Positions 16,700 through 53,246 of a stretch of 64,000 nucleotides of DNA are shown one piece after another; position 1 is the first letter of the stretch, and each line of letters begins with the position of its first letter. This DNA comes from Acidobacteriota bacterium. GTDB lineage: Bacteria; Acidobacteriota; Thermoanaerobaculia; Gp7-AA8. The notes under the pieces are model-generated. The model made no database searches, was not told the DNA's origin, and saw only the letters and a program-made list of their open reading frames with translations. The translations under genes were made by a program, and so were the position numbers. The stretch is taken from positions 433,334 through 497,333 of the forward strand of contig QHVT01000004.1 in NCBI GenBank assembly GCA_003223645.1, given 5' to 3'.

Positions 16700-18895
16700 T
16701 CACTTGACGCCACTGCGCAACTCGGCGATGTGCGCTGTTTTCGCGACCGTGGATCCGACTGTGATCGTGGAATCGCTGTACGGCACCGCCGGTAAGCCGA
16801 TCGCAGTGCGCGCGGCGTCGAGCGCGGTGCGAAGCTGCGTGAGGTGAGTCGCCTTGATCGCCACTCCGGCGAGTGACGGGTCGGCGAAGGACTGTGGAGC
16901 GAGACCGGCTGCGGCGCGCATGGCGTTCACCGCGGTGCGCAACTGCGTGATGTGCACCGCTTTCACCGAGGACCCGCTGACCAACGGATCGTCGGTGAAG
17001 ATAGTCGTCGTCGCGGCATCGGTGGCGAACGCTGACGCTGCGGCGCCGGCGACGGCGCGAACCTGGTAGAGGTACGTCGTGTCGGCAGTGAGGGCGGTGT
17101 CGCTCGTCGACGTTGCGCTCGTCGATTTGAGCAGCGCGTACGCGCTGTGGTTGACGCTGCGATAAATGTCGTAGCTCGATGCGCCGGGGCTCGCGTTCCA
17201 CGACAGGTTCACCTGAGTCGTGCTCGTGGCGGTGGCAACAAAGCCGGTCGGCGCAGGAGGCGCCGCGACGCCGGGAATCACGAGCAGCGTGATGCTCTGC
17301 GCCGGCAGCGTGAGGGACAGCGAAGAACCCGAGAAGGTTACGTCCGCGAGATGCGCGATGCTGTTCGATGCGTCGAACTGCCAGCGCTGCGCGGATGCGC
17401 CGGGAGTGAAATTCGCCAGGCTCACGGTGGTCGCCGTCGAGCCGCTCAGCACCTTCGCCACGATCATCAGCGTCAGCGCACCGTCGGAGGAGCGAATGGC
17501 TGCGAACGCGGCGACATTGTCGGGATTCGGCACCGTGGCCGCTACGCTGACGTCGCCGAACTTCGAGTGCGCGCCGTCGTAGTTGCGGTACATCTTGTAC
17601 GCGTTGTAGACGTGCGAGCCTGCCGGCGGCACTTCCCAGCGCGTGGCCATGTCGAGCCCTTCACGCCCGAAGATGCCGAGGACGTCGGCCTGTGCGGTGG
17701 CGCCGTTGATGTGATGCTCCGCGCCCCAGCTGTACTCCGTGATGCCGATCTTCGTGCCGGGATAGTGATCGGTGACCCACGACTCGAGGCGCGGGATCAA
17801 CTGAACTTTTCCCTCATGAAATGTAGCGCCGATCCACGACTCGTCGACGTAGTTCGTGTCCCACAGCGAGCGCGTCGAACGGTTGCGCAGTTGCTGCATG
17901 CTCGCCGACACGTCGTCCGAAAACTCGCCGCTCTGCGGGTAGTAGTGCACGGTGAGGATGTCGAAAATCCGTACGCCGTGCGCATCCTGGTAGGCCTTGG
18001 CCTGATCGAGCATGTAGTCGTACCACTCTTTGCCGCCGTGCGCATCGCGGTCGGCGTTGTCGCCGTTCTCCATGTCCTTGCCGCTCATGAAGTATCCCGA
18101 CCACCCCCATTCCTCGCCGCCGGTGATGATGGCGTTCGCGTCCTTCGAACGAATGAGGGCGCCGTACTCCTGCATCTTTCCCCACACCTCGTCGTAGGTC
18201 GCGCCGTCGGGATGGACGTCCCAATGATCGAAGCTCCAGAGACCGGGCTCGTTGTCGAGCGAGTAGTAGGTCATGCCTCCCGCGCCGGCATTGCCCCACG
18301 TGTCGATCATGTGCTGCACCCAGTTGCCCTGGTGCGCCGAGGTGTAGCTCGTGGCGATGTTGTTCGGGTCGGCAATGGTGAGGATGCGATCACCGTCGCC
18401 GGTGATGCCGTTGCCATCGTCATGACGTCCGTTCCCGCAAGTGATCGGCTCGAAAGTGGAGAACTCCTCCTGATCCATGAACGCCGACTGCGGAAACGAA
18501 CAGCGCTTGGCGCGGTCTTTCGGCAGGAGCGACATCATCGGAATCGTCATGACCGGCTGCGCGCCCGCGGCACGCGTGAAGCTGATGAAATCGTCGGCGG
18601 ACTTTCCGTTCGAGCCGTCGCCCGAAGAGACGGAGTCGGGGATGTTGAAAAAGTAATAGTCCTTGCAGCGGTTGGCGGTGCTGAACGCCCAGTTGTAGCG
18701 GCTCATCGCATTCCCGCCCCAACGGTTCAGAGGGATGGAAAGGTCCGTGATGGCAGCGGCATTCGCCCACGCCACTCCATAAATGCGCGGGTCGATGGCG
18801 TGCCGGTTCCCGTTGGCGTCGACGCTGATGTTGATCGCCGCATCTGCCTGCGGCACGGCGAGCATTACGGCGAAAGAGAGGAGAAACGCGCGCAT
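16700..18895 (-). CDS. Secreted GH44-family glycoside hydrolase with FnIII and C-terminal HxxxLR repeats
   Basis: A 731-residue exported enzyme: signal peptide 1-19, then a TIM-barrel with GH44 hallmarks. These are NRWGGNAMSRYNW near 57-69, YYSLDNEPGLW with acid/base Glu216, and GITEYSWG with nucleophile Glu387. GH44 enzymes are endo-beta-1,4-glucanases/xyloglucanases. A beta-sandwich runs to ~540, a fibronectin III domain spans ~547-628, and three ~36-residue repeats occupy 633-731. Each repeat has a D..[LI]....[VI]KA.H[IL]..LR pattern; the last is cut short. These repeats look like an anchoring or secretion module found in related bacteria, but their role is unknown. It probably feeds on plant glucans. 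Confidence 0.88.
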   Translation of the reverse strand: MRAFLLSFAVMLAVPQADAAINISVDANGNRHAIDPRIYGVAWANAAAITDLSIPLNRWGGNAMSRYNWAFSTANRCKDYYFFNIPDSVSSGDGSNGKSADDFISFTRAAGAQPVMTIPMMSLLPKDRAKRCSFPQSAFMDQEEFSTFEPITCGNGRHDDGNGITGDGDRILTIADPNNIATSYTSAHQGNWVQHMIDTWGNAGAGGMTYYSLDNEPGLWSFDHWDVHPDGATYDEVWGKMQEYGALIRSKDANAIITGGEEWGWSGYFMSGKDMENGDNADRDAHGGKEWYDYMLDQAKAYQDAHGVRIFDILTVHYYPQSGEFSDDVSASMQQLRNRSTRSLWDTNYVDESWIGATFHEGKVQLIPRLESWVTDHYPGTKIGITEYSWGAEHHINGATAQADVLGIFGREGLDMATRWEVPPAGSHVYNAYKMYRNYDGAHSKFGDVSVAATVPNPDNVAAFAAIRSSDGALTLMIVAKVLSGSTATTVSLANFTPGASAQRWQFDASNSIAHLADVTFSGSSLSLTLPAQSITLLVIPGVAAPPAPTGFVATATSTTQVNLSWNASPGASSYDIYRSVNHSAYALLKSTSATSTSDTALTADTTYLYQVRAVAGAAASAFATDAATTTIFTDDPLVSGSSVKAVHITQLRTAVNAMRAAAGLAPQSFADPSLAGVAIKATHLTQLRTALDAARTAIGLPAVPYSDSTITVGSTVAKTAHIAELRSGVK

Positions 18896-18986: not shown

Positions 18987-21053
18987 TCAAATCGACAGCC
19001 CGACGTCCCCTTCGAGAACCGATGTCTTCAGCTTCGGGCGCTCTCCGCTCTTCCACAGTGCAGCGGTGAGGACGACGCGATACCTGATTGGTCCGCCGTC
19101 GGGTCGTTCGCTGCGCGTAATGGGGCGCGGGATGCAGACGAACTCGGTGCGCATCTCTTTGGACGACAATCGGACCTTCGCATAACCGTGTCCTCCGAGA
19201 TCGAGAAACTCGAGGTGCGGAGCCAGATCGGGGTTGGACAGCGACCGTGCGCGCTTGAGGTCGAAGCTCTTTGCATACTCGAGACACGAGCGGACGCCGT
19301 GCCTTAGCAGCATGTTGTAAGTCCACTCCGGTTTCGCCCCTTCCTTGTCCGCAAGAAACAGAGGTCGCAGCGGAGCGTCCTTCGGAAGATTGTGCTCATT
19401 GGCCTCCATCGGGCCGGGGCTGCTGAGTGACGCGCCCACGAAGCTCAAGCCGATCGGCTCGAACCTGCCGGGCGGAAGGTCTTTGGCCGCATATCCGGCC
19501 CAGAAGCTGTGGAGATCGCCCGAGACGATGGCGAAGCCTGTAATCTTCGAGTCGCGAACGAGATCGTAGATCTCCCCGCGCTCCAGGTACGCGGTACCGT
19601 AGTCGCCGCCGCCCATGCATGCGTAAGCGTCTTTCGGCCAGGACTCCTTGGTGAGACCCGCGGGCAGGTTCTGCGGGTCGGCGCGATGATCCAGCGTGCC
19701 CTGCGAGTTGCCCCAGATTTTCCACGCCGCCGTAGAGCTCTTGAGCCTCTCTTTGAACCACGCCTTCTGCTCCGCTCCGAGGATGGTTTGCGGCGGCGCG
19801 TTCCGTTGTGGGTTTGCAACGTGCGCTTCATTGAACGTGACTTCGGCCGGTGGTTCGCCGCCGTTGAAGGCGCGCCCGCCGTCGAGGATCCGCATGAGAA
19901 TCTCGGGAGCCATTGCGATGAACTCGTCGCCCCCGAGCTTTCCGAGCGACGGATCGCTGAAGGGGTCCGCGCTCCGATAGCTGTGCTGGTCGGTAATGAT
20001 CAGATCGAGGTTCTGGCCGTACCGCAATGCCCGATAACCTTTGAGGCTGTTGATCGCGACGAGGTTGTTCGGTTCCGCTCCGAGTCCATTGCGATCGAAC
20101 TCGGTGATCGGGACGTCTTTTACATCTGGCGCATCGAACCGCTCGAACGACCCGTTCCGCTGAGGGACACGGGCCGGGATGTACTCGAACCAGGCCTGAT
20201 TCGCAGCAACCTTGATGCTCTGGCCGGGCCGCTCGAACCGCCCCGCTTTCACGATGCTTTGCCACCCCTGCCACGAGAATTCGTGGTTGTCCCAGATACA
20301 GACAAACGGCCAGCGCGCGCGCGCGTCCTGGAGGTCGGGATCGGTGAGATAGCCTTTGTAGACGGCCCGATAGCCATCGAGGGACAGCGGTATGTGGAAG
20401 TTGCTGACCTTGTGACTGTGATCCTCCGGGAAGCGCGCAACCTCATAGATCGTGCGGTCGTAGCGCGTCTTCACCTCGTCGGGATACTCGACCACCTCGT
20501 AGATGAAATCGCCAAGGTGGAGAACGAAAGCGACTTGCTCGGCGGCGGGAGCGCGTTCATCTTCGTAGATCATCCGCCGATAGGCGTTGAGCTTTCCCTC
20601 ATTGACGTCCTGACAGCTCACGAATGCGAAGTTCACCGTGCGGGGATCGTTCGGCAACGGCGCTGTGATCGTGCGCCCGACCCGGCTGCCGTTTCCGTCG
20701 GCGTCGGTAAACCGATACCAGTACGGGTGCGCCGGCTTGAGCCCGCCGACCAGAACGCGCGCCGTCCAGTCCGCGGCGCTCGAGACCGGCACCTGCTCGT
20801 GCGCAATGACTCGACGGAACGCCTCATCCTCGGCAACCTCGACGGTCAGGAGCTGGCGTGTGCCCTCGGCGAACGGACGCCTCGTCCACAGGATGACGCT
20901 GTGCGCGTCGGGATCACCCGAGGCGACTCCGTGAGGATAGAGATCACGCCGCTCATGCCATTGGACGCGTGAACCGCGGGCCGGTCCGACCCACGCGAGC
21001 GAAGCACCCATGGCTGCTGCAGCTTTGAGAAAGGAACGTCGGCTGATCGTCAT
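18987..21053 (-). CDS. phoD: PhoD-like alkaline phosphatase/phosphodiesterase, Tat-exported
   Basis: A 688-residue protein with a Tat signal (SRRSFLKAAAAMGASLAW) and an N-terminal Fn-like domain: ASGDPDAHSVILWTR opening, VLVGGLKPAHPYWYRF, then FAFVSCQDVNEGKLNAYRRM. The metallophosphatase core has VLHLGDFIYE, CIWDNHEFSWQGWQ, LIITDQHSYR, WGNSQGTLD-like and IVSGDLHSFWAGY blocks. The Asp/His/Asn residues match the Fe/Ca site of PhoD. It releases phosphate from phosphodiesters in the periplasm or outside. An unusual 820-bp gene-free region with tandem dyads lies upstream. Confidence 0.88.
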   Translation of the reverse strand: MTISRRSFLKAAAAMGASLAWVGPARGSRVQWHERRDLYPHGVASGDPDAHSVILWTRRPFAEGTRQLLTVEVAEDEAFRRVIAHEQVPVSSAADWTARVLVGGLKPAHPYWYRFTDADGNGSRVGRTITAPLPNDPRTVNFAFVSCQDVNEGKLNAYRRMIYEDERAPAAEQVAFVLHLGDFIYEVVEYPDEVKTRYDRTIYEVARFPEDHSHKVSNFHIPLSLDGYRAVYKGYLTDPDLQDARARWPFVCIWDNHEFSWQGWQSIVKAGRFERPGQSIKVAANQAWFEYIPARVPQRNGSFERFDAPDVKDVPITEFDRNGLGAEPNNLVAINSLKGYRALRYGQNLDLIITDQHSYRSADPFSDPSLGKLGGDEFIAMAPEILMRILDGGRAFNGGEPPAEVTFNEAHVANPQRNAPPQTILGAEQKAWFKERLKSSTAAWKIWGNSQGTLDHRADPQNLPAGLTKESWPKDAYACMGGGDYGTAYLERGEIYDLVRDSKITGFAIVSGDLHSFWAGYAAKDLPPGRFEPIGLSFVGASLSSPGPMEANEHNLPKDAPLRPLFLADKEGAKPEWTYNMLLRHGVRSCLEYAKSFDLKRARSLSNPDLAPHLEFLDLGGHGYAKVRLSSKEMRTEFVCIPRPITRSERPDGGPIRYRVVLTAALWKSGERPKLKTSVLEGDVGLSI

Positions 21054-21874
21054 GGTCCGGCAGTTTCACACACGTTGCGGATCTCTCGACGCTTCGAGTC
21101 TGCAAACGTTCGATCGATGAATTTGCAACGCGGTGACAGTGTCATGGCACCACCGCCAGCCATCAATTCCTCGCGAGCACGAACGGTGACCTCTGCAGAA
21201 GACATCGATGATTCCGCGGAAGTCAAATTGACTTGTTCGGAAGTCAAATTGACTTGCCCGGAAGTCAAATTGAGTTGCCCGGAAGTGAACGTTGACTTAT
21301 TCGGAAGTTAAATTGACTTGCCCGGAAGTGAACGCTGACTTGCCCGGAAGTCAAATTGACTTGCCCGGAAGTGAACGTTGACTTGTTCGGAAGTCAAATT
21401 GACTTGCCCGGAAGTGAACGCTGACTTGTCGGGAAGTCAAATTGACTTGCCCGGAGGTGAACGCTGACTTGTCCGGAAGTCAAATTGACTTGCCCGGAAG
21501 TGAACGGTGACTTGTTCCGAAGTAAGCGTTGACTTGTCCGGAAATGAAGATTGACTTGTCCCGAAGTCAACGACGACTTACCCCGAACTCAACGACGACT
21601 TACCCCGCAGTCAACGACGACTCACGTTGAGTCACTGTCGTCCGCACGAAAGGAACAAAGCACGTGAAACGACCCGTCTTTGAACCGCGCATTGATCTAT
21701 GAAGCGGAGTCGTTAAGCAACAGTTGACATAACCCGCCGCCTCGAGCCAGAAGCTGTCACGGCCCGGCGCTGGCCCGGCAGCCTAGCCAAGATAAGCGGT
21801 ATCGGGCAAAAAATTGAGCTATTCAGGCAAAGCGTGGCCGCGTTCGGGTCCTGATTTAGCAATCCTCACGACGT
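21054..21874. other. Long gene-free region containing the dyad array
   Basis: 821 bp separate divergent genes (phoD, minus; AraC regulator, plus). 21217-21626 is a tandem repeat array (separate entry). 21619-21633 contains one more dyad, GACTCA-CGT-TGAGTC. The remainder (21054-21216, 21634-21874) holds no supported gene. Promoters for both flanking genes must be here but none is convincing. Confidence 0.7.
21217..21626. repeat. Tandem array of 19 phased palindromic units (21/22 bp)
   Basis: Units start at 21217, 21238, 21259, 21280, 21302, 21323, 21345, 21366, 21388, 21409, 21431, 21452, 21474, 21495, 21517, 21539, 21561, 21583 and 21605. Type A (21 bp) has the core AAGTCAAATTGACTT, a perfect dyad of 7-bp arms around one base. 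Type B (22 bp) has AAGTGAACGTTGACTT, 8-bp arms with one mismatch. From unit 4 to unit 14 the types alternate B-A-B-A strictly, giving a 43-bp higher-order period. Units 15-19 drift. Dyad centres are therefore spaced by about two helical turns on one DNA face. Confidence 0.9.
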
Positions 21875-25025
<3,151 letters not shown>

Positions 25026-30244: not shown

Positions 30245-30405
30245 TTGTACAGGGGCTGCGCTGTTGGCGGCTTCGCCGTTGGCGGCTTCGCTGTTGGCGG
30301 CTTCGCGGATGGCGGATGGCAGCTTCGCTGATGGCGATGGTGGCCCGAACTAACGTTGCCATCGGCGCAGCCGCCATCCGCCATCAGCGAAGCCGCCATC
30401 ACGCG
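30245..30405. repeat. GGCGGATGGCAG-type repeat cluster, locus 1
   Basis: A run of short direct repeats (GTTGGCGGCTTCGC three times) is followed by inverted arms, GATGGCGGATGGCAGCTTCG and GCGAAGCCGCCATC with GCCATCCGCCATCAGC between. The same motif family is seen at 39057-39121 and 50110-50268. It lies between the PilZ gene and the lytic transglycosylase gene. Confidence 0.75.
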
Positions 30406-50106: not shown

Positions 50107-50109
50107 GGG

Positions 50110-50268
50110 GTCGCACGATGGCGGCTACGCGGGTGGCAGATGGCAGCTCCGCTGATGGCGGATGGCAGATGGCAGATGGCAAGCGAGTTCCAGGCGCGCT
50201 ATCCGCCATCGGCCATCTGCCATCAGCAGAGCCGCGATCCGCCATCCGCGCAGCTGCGATCGGCGCAG
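50110..50268. repeat. GGCGGATGGCAG-type repeat cluster, locus 3
   Basis: Repeated GGCAGATGGCAG/GGCGGATGGCAG on the left face GCCATCGGCCATCTGCCATC and GATCCGCCATCCGCGC on the right, giving imperfect inverted arms around a non-repetitive core. It lies directly upstream of the zinc-ribbon gene at 50284. Confidence 0.75.
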
Positions 50269-52954: not shown

Positions 52955-53246
52955 CTTGAAAAGCAGAAAGCAAAAAGCAGAAAGCAGAAATCCCCCTCAG
53001 GGCGAGTGTCATGTCCCGATTGAAAGCGGGGGTCGCATCGACGCGATGGATGAAGGCGTTGACGGCAACGATTGACCCATCGATGGCAACGATGGAGCCA
53101 TCGATGGCAACAATCGACGCATCGATGCGACCGAACACCAGGCCGCTGACGTGCTCAACTGGCGACGTGTCCCCGATTGAAGACAGATCGATCGTCAACC
53201 GCTTCCCATTTCTGCTTTTTGCTTTCTGCTTTCTGCTCTTTGAAAC
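52955..53246. repeat. Terminal-inverted-repeat element with three internal 21-bp tandem units
   Basis: Left end 52955-52990 consists of AGCAGAAAGCA-type repeats; right end 53208-53245 is the inverted form (TTTCTGCTTTTTGCTTTCTG). Inside, three 21-bp units start at 53064, 53085 and 53106 (GGCAACGAT...CATCGAT pattern). TGTCCCGATTGAA (near 53012) recurs as TGTCCCCGATTGAA near 53168. No gene is supported; short frames on both strands are repeat translations. The remaining 56 bp to 53302 hold nothing recognised. Confidence 0.7.

Follow-up and report, generated by a model that had tools for sequence, protein, structure and literature searches.

Dispersed DNA arrays with a near-constant ~21-bp step and fast-evolving units, linked to a lineage-restricted bacterial gene family

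Repeats in bacterial genomes are usually attributed either to the copying of a sequence, as with REP and IS-derived elements, or to recognition of a fixed site, as with parS and operators. In eukaryotes, centromeric satellites display fast concerted evolution of their units along with a conserved unit length. Several described bacterial systems invite comparison with the arrays analyzed here. REP and BIME repeats, which are associated with RAYT transposases, are dispersed intergenic palindromes whose copies occur with or without the gene (PMC2817692, PMC3116915). The sopC/parS site of plasmid F is a tandem series of twelve 43-bp units that contain inverted repeats of 16 bp (PMC6238139). In type III toxin-antitoxin systems (ToxIN, CptIN, and TenpIN), repeats are located upstream of a small protein gene (PMC4627078).

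The window array and its neighbors

The array under study is contained in a stretch of 64,000 nucleotides (the window) and comprises 19 tandem units at positions 21214 to 21623, delineated with TRF and by unit-by-unit reading; neither the array nor any part of it is assigned a strand. The unit lengths are, in order, 21, 21, 21, 22, (21, 22) × 5, 22, 22, 22, 22, and 22 bp. Units 1 to 3 (21214 to 21276), each of 21 bp, carry the 15-bp odd dyad AAGTCAAATTGACTT; in units 4 to 14 (21277 to 21513), 22-bp units of the AAGTGAACGyTGACTT type alternate with 21-bp units of the AAGTCAAATTGACTT type, with a period of 43 bp; and units 15 to 19 (21514 to 21623), each of 22 bp, are increasingly degenerate. 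TRF reported 8.2 copies of a 43-bp period (score, 503), followed by 3.2 copies of a 22-bp period. The unit lengths and the TRF output thus confirm the count of 19 units and the strict alternation in units 4 to 14 that were proposed in the initial annotation. Its description of the dyads holds in part: of the eight 15-bp copies, six form a perfect 7-1-7 dyad and two an imperfect one, and the 16-bp form, described as an 8-8 dyad with one mismatch, matches that description in units 4 and 8 alone, with two or three mismatches in the others among units 4 to 14. The dyad symmetry of the array as a whole marginally exceeds a column-permutation null (P ~ 0.03, which is near the resolution of 60 permutations). 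The center-to-center spacing shifts from 21.0 to 21.5 to 22.0 bp along the array (mean, 21.58 bp), so that, on a helix of 10.5 bp per turn, the face presented by the dyads turns through ~326 degrees from end to end; the idea that all dyads face one side of the DNA fails at this pitch and holds only near 10.8 bp per turn.

The array separates two divergent genes. A PhoD-like phosphatase with a Tat signal (18987 to 21053, minus strand; Pfam PF09423 and PF16655) starts 160 bp from the array on the left, and an AraC-type regulator with AraC_N and HTH_18 domains (21875 to 22930, plus strand; Pfam PF06719 and PF12833) starts 251 bp from it on the right. The Pfam matches agree with the location given initially, as does the lack of any convincing coding frame across the array among the open reading frames of the window. 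Farther left, at 16700 to 18895 on the minus strand, a 731-aa secreted-looking protein is encoded that, by eye, looks like a glycoside hydrolase and includes what looks like a fibronectin type III part.

Like sopC/parS, the window array is a tandem repeat of 43-bp period with inverted repeats; unlike sopC/parS, it contains two dyads per 43 bp and belongs with arrays at many chromosomal loci whose sequences differ. The suggestion of a partition or iteron-like site found no support in Pfam searches of the immediate neighbors, PhoD and AraC: in contrast to a partition centromere, no ParA/ParB or ParM/ParR genes adjoin the array, and in contrast to an iteron origin, no initiator (Rep) gene does so on this 510-kb contig. 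The array also differs from CRISPR, in that both unit types recur and unique spacers are absent.

The window contains a second, small array of three copies with a 21-bp step (53064 to 53127; TRF; no strand), which shares nine 10-mers (shuffled mean, 0.17; shuffled maximum, 5) with a gene-linked array at C8:167 kb. Short, mutually inverted repeats of AAAGCAG (52960 to 52990) and TTTCTGC (53209 to 53237) lie on either side of it. Dispersed short GGATGGCAGATGGC-like runs, locally opposing their inverse (GCCATC), were also seen, both in the window (30254 to 30400 and 50108 to 50181) and elsewhere in the collection of loci (L012, 799 to 1020; L018, 1544 to 1683).

Related arrays and the linked protein family

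A search of the genome from which the window comes (G000; 6.38 Mb in 51 contigs) with AAGTCAAATTGACTT, allowing up to 2 mismatches, yielded 95 matches, most of them in arrays at about 10 places, whereas the reversed control yielded 5. The arrays fetched from this genome form two related classes. The 43-bp class includes the window array, L010, and L014, together with L009, which consists of mixed 21- and 22-bp units; in the 41-bp class (L011, L012, L013, L015, and L016), CAAATTGAC units alternate with GGATCGATG units. Among 18 genomes of the bacterial family, the paired CAAATTGAC pattern was found only in G000, and in viral contigs its matches were scattered and nearly all single, without a 21- or 43-bp series. 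Unit edges in the arrays of this genome decay gradually. The genes beside the related arrays are unrelated and include convergent gene ends (L014 and L015), a cytochrome oxidase operon, and an ABC permease. An array fragment of 1.5 units (C21:496 kb; L250, 4411 to 6745) lies at the junction of a STAND-type ATPase frame and another frame, a placement that looks like a rearrangement breakpoint. A further, partly tandem repeat resembling GAGCGAGGGA(C/T)CTGGGGCTCGGGTGG occurs in the same genome (L014, 99 to 389; L253, 5211 to 6001; L277, 9460 to 9640; L429, 8164 to 8350).

A partner protein family was spotted beside four arrays of G000, two of which have similar proteins of ~200 aa downstream and two of which have decayed copies; decayed copies of the gene adjoin intact arrays at L011 and L016. 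A profile built from 19 paralogs gave 35 matches in G000, 56 in G005, 54 in G014, 9 in G017, and 2 in G001, some of these matches being fragments, and none in 56 other relatives; in a sample of 396 genomes from the phylum, with 8 candidates scored per genome, no additional genome had a match. The protein family is lineage restricted, with expansion to 35 to 56 matches in three genomes of one bacterial family. Its members, called from simple codon-usage predictions, average 184 aa and are basic (median pI, 9.6), with a C-terminal basic tail that is rich in proline, alanine, or lysine and has a pI above 9.5 in 54 of 57 proteins. The dN/dS ratio of 0.28 to 0.50 in 15 pairs indicates purifying selection. 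Conserved residues are chiefly hydrophobic, small, or arginine, and the alignment contains no obvious set of catalytic-looking residues. Comparisons with Pfam and NCBIfam (19 members scanned), PHROGs, PDB, PADLOC, and plasmids produced chance-level matches only; profile and PDB searches identified no recognized DNA-binding domain, and a family protein used as a query had no relative in the viral contigs.

The arrays are linked to the genes of this family in a strictly oriented manner. Among genes preceded by 400 bp or more of sequence, 37 of 53 had an array, defined by an ungapped identity of 70% or higher across 126 bp, within 1.7 kb upstream, and 0 of 57 had one downstream (Fisher P = 6e-17; five related genomes); five genes too close to a contig end were left out. 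Most genes with no qualifying array have weaker repeats with lags near multiples of 21. The distance from array to gene is specific to the gene lineage, for example, 822 to 856 bp in seven G014 copies, with a reading frame between, and ~330 to 350 bp in another lineage; it reaches ~1.2 kb, often with an intervening frame. This slot is kept within gene lineages while the unit sequence changes.

Several features of the interval between array and gene were recorded along the way. One gene lineage, spanning two genera, has an upstream reading frame in common (mostly ~230 aa long, with the ending GRAPP(L/F)...), which was found between array and gene at L012 (5159 to 6085), L331 to L336, and L346; its codon scores are low, and two copies of it had no significant Pfam match. 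At L275 and L272, the same position is occupied by a divergent pair of frames, one for an HTH_3 regulator (the L275 copy of which has a Pfam match) and the other a small frame that, by eye, looks toxin-antitoxin-like. In one lineage, a well-conserved leader, CCAGCCGGTGGCCGC...CCTCCGGCCT, lies ~100 bp upstream of the gene (L317, L318, L319, L322, L340, L343, and L347 to L349), and base pairing between a CCTCC motif and the ribosome-binding site is conceivable. Rfam searches of four loci returned only partial 16S rRNA.

Across loci, the step is nearly constant. With candidate steps of 14 to 31 bp, the fundamental step was 20.4 to 22.1 bp in 51 of 52 arrays (median, 20.99 bp), a set made up of gene-linked arrays as TRF found them and of array-only loci, several of which had been picked by period or sequence. 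Units are alike within an array and different between loci. For example, the proteins at L330 and L331 are 92% identical (dS, 0.11), and their arrays are in register, differing at ~7 of 21 unit positions; each difference is fixed throughout its array, which indicates concerted evolution. The unit sequences thus evolve much faster than the proteins, and a strictly sequence-specific pairing of protein and array is strained accordingly. Dyad symmetry is not universal among the arrays: the column-permutation null (60 replicates) was exceeded by 18 of 52 (2.6 expected).

Many arrays have no adjoining family gene; several of these orphans are similar to an array that, in the same genome, is linked to a gene. 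The window contains neither a family gene nor a recognizable relic of one; its array shares 36 10-mers (shuffled maximum, 5) with the gene-linked L010 array and is most similar to the array that lies upstream of the C21:118,259 family gene. Other likenesses involving orphan arrays of G000 amount to 118 shared 10-mers (L254 and L274), 30 (L253 and L016), and 26 (L253 and L267). Few of the orphan arrays in G005 and G014 resembled gene-linked arrays, only part of which entered the comparison. Density was estimated in samples of 20-kb stretches away from known family genes. In 400 kb of G005 and G014 combined, there were 12 intergenic arrays with a ~21-bp step (15 when periods of 126 to 173 bp are included), none of them near a family gene; G000 contained 1 in 280 kb (3 when periods of 126 and 168 bp are included); and none were found in 120 kb of G017 or in 344 kb of G001, G009, G011, and G012. 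Per sampled kilobase, array density follows the copy number of the family gene, a relation drawn from few genomes, three of them in one genus.

Function and origin of the arrays

The best explanation, on which our judgment is evenly balanced, is that the window array is an orphan of this dispersed, fast-evolving, satellite-like class of arrays with a ~21-bp step, tied to the basic protein family, and that such arrays are DNA platforms. Two turns of B-DNA correspond to ~21 bp. The array would act as duplex DNA, offering multiple sites on which the basic family protein, or another protein, may assemble at two-turn spacing; such a platform would serve autoregulation of the family gene, local structuring of the nucleoid, or both. 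Orphan arrays, the window array included, would either serve as further platforms or have arisen as by-products when the arrays spread. The phased multi-site DNA scaffold that was proposed initially accords with these observations and is the reading favored here. Recurrence at unrelated loci, which the initial annotation had regarded as the mark of a random minisatellite, was indeed found, as was drift of the unit sequence; however, the window array is not a random minisatellite, given that the step of ~21 bp persists and that the link is to a single gene family. In a more far-reaching version, which we advance tentatively, the lineage-specific basic protein family maintains, and possibly propagates, the fast-evolving two-helical-turn arrays, with spacing rather than sequence as the conserved signal.

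Array and gene might instead constitute an autonomous mobile or selfish element, with orphans as its nonautonomous copies and with the protein or a host enzyme driving the copying in the manner of REP and its transposase. This origin appears rather unlikely to us, even though several observations point to it. Paralogs have in common the segment from the array to the terminator, a GC-rich hairpin that closely follows the gene, and their outer flanks differ; orphan arrays resemble a gene-linked array; and decayed genes sit by intact arrays, as described above for L011 and L016. In seven relatives, the L014 array has no counterpart in the sequence read next to the ortholog of its neighboring gene. 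For L015, five relatives that share the gene neighbor lack an array, and in G005 the orthologous PEPCK gene is accompanied by an array with another sequence. However, the linked gene has neither a transposase-type match nor conserved catalytic-looking residues, the one pair of ends that was closely inspected has no common terminal repeats or target site duplications, and the differences between units are far above the expectation for recent copies.

A purely mutational origin, through slippage or the repair of staggered breaks with a ~21-bp footprint, would make the arrays functionless and place the gene family in a permissive region. The largely arbitrary unit sequence and the gradual decay of the edges fit such a process, and a constant step with free sequence could be the trace of a molecular ruler. 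We nevertheless consider this origin doubtful in the face of the strict upstream bias (37 of 53 versus 0 of 57), the conservation of the slot within lineages, and the lack of arrays in 344 kb of relatives with 0 to 2 family matches.

It is more doubtful still that the repeats are transcribed, in the style of type III toxin-antitoxin systems, as a hairpin or antitoxin RNA for the downstream protein. The order is the same, repeats followed by a gene for ~190 aa, and single-strand folding of the arrays is stronger than that of shuffled sequence, but the antisense strand folds as well as the sense strand (sense favored in 18 of 42; P = 0.31). Symmetry that works at the level of duplex DNA would be expected to show no strand preference of this kind, and the comparison leaves the RNA-hairpin idea unsupported. 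Furthermore, the gap to the gene extends to ~1.2 kb, often with another frame in it, no known toxin family is matched, and many arrays have no gene. Least probable by our estimate is a cooperative operator dedicated to phoD and/or araC, which the position between two divergent starts would suit but which is unsupported given that related arrays adjoin unrelated genes, convergent gene ends included, that the 17 array-only loci comprise 6 convergent, 8 tandem, and 3 divergent gene settings, and that two relatives with an AraC ortholog have neither phoD nor an array within the few kilobases read around it.

Comparison with described systems

No earlier description of the array and protein family was found in the databases and literature searched, the latter with incomplete coverage and narrow terms. 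It shares with REP/RAYT the many dispersed, intergenic, palindromic copies, with and without a linked gene, and repeat types that follow the gene lineage. Unlike the single or paired REP palindromes, however, the arrays described here are long, head to tail, and of a fixed ~21-bp step; the linked protein has no match to an HuH (Y1) tyrosine transposase (19 members, Pfam and NCBIfam); and the repeats are not inverted on both sides of the gene, with 37 of 53 upstream and 0 of 57 downstream. The likeness to type III toxin-antitoxin systems lies in short tandem repeats 5′ of a small protein gene that are highly variable among loci. The differences are that there is no strand-specific RNA fold, that gene-less arrays are abundant, that the window array has no adjoining family gene and the gaps at family loci reach ~1.2 kb, and that the family protein has no ToxN, CptN, or TenpN match in Pfam, NCBIfam, or PDB.

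With eukaryotic centromeric satellites, the arrays have in common the fast concerted evolution of the unit sequence at conserved unit length; they differ from them in being bacterial, short, and scattered through intergenic DNA. In contrast to the usual bacterial repeats, the sequence here is free, the spacing is fixed, and the abundance tracks an uncharacterized gene family. If confirmed, the system would make the origin of concerted evolution and helical phasing testable in a small genome and would represent a bacterial counterpart of satellite DNA with a protein partner of its own.
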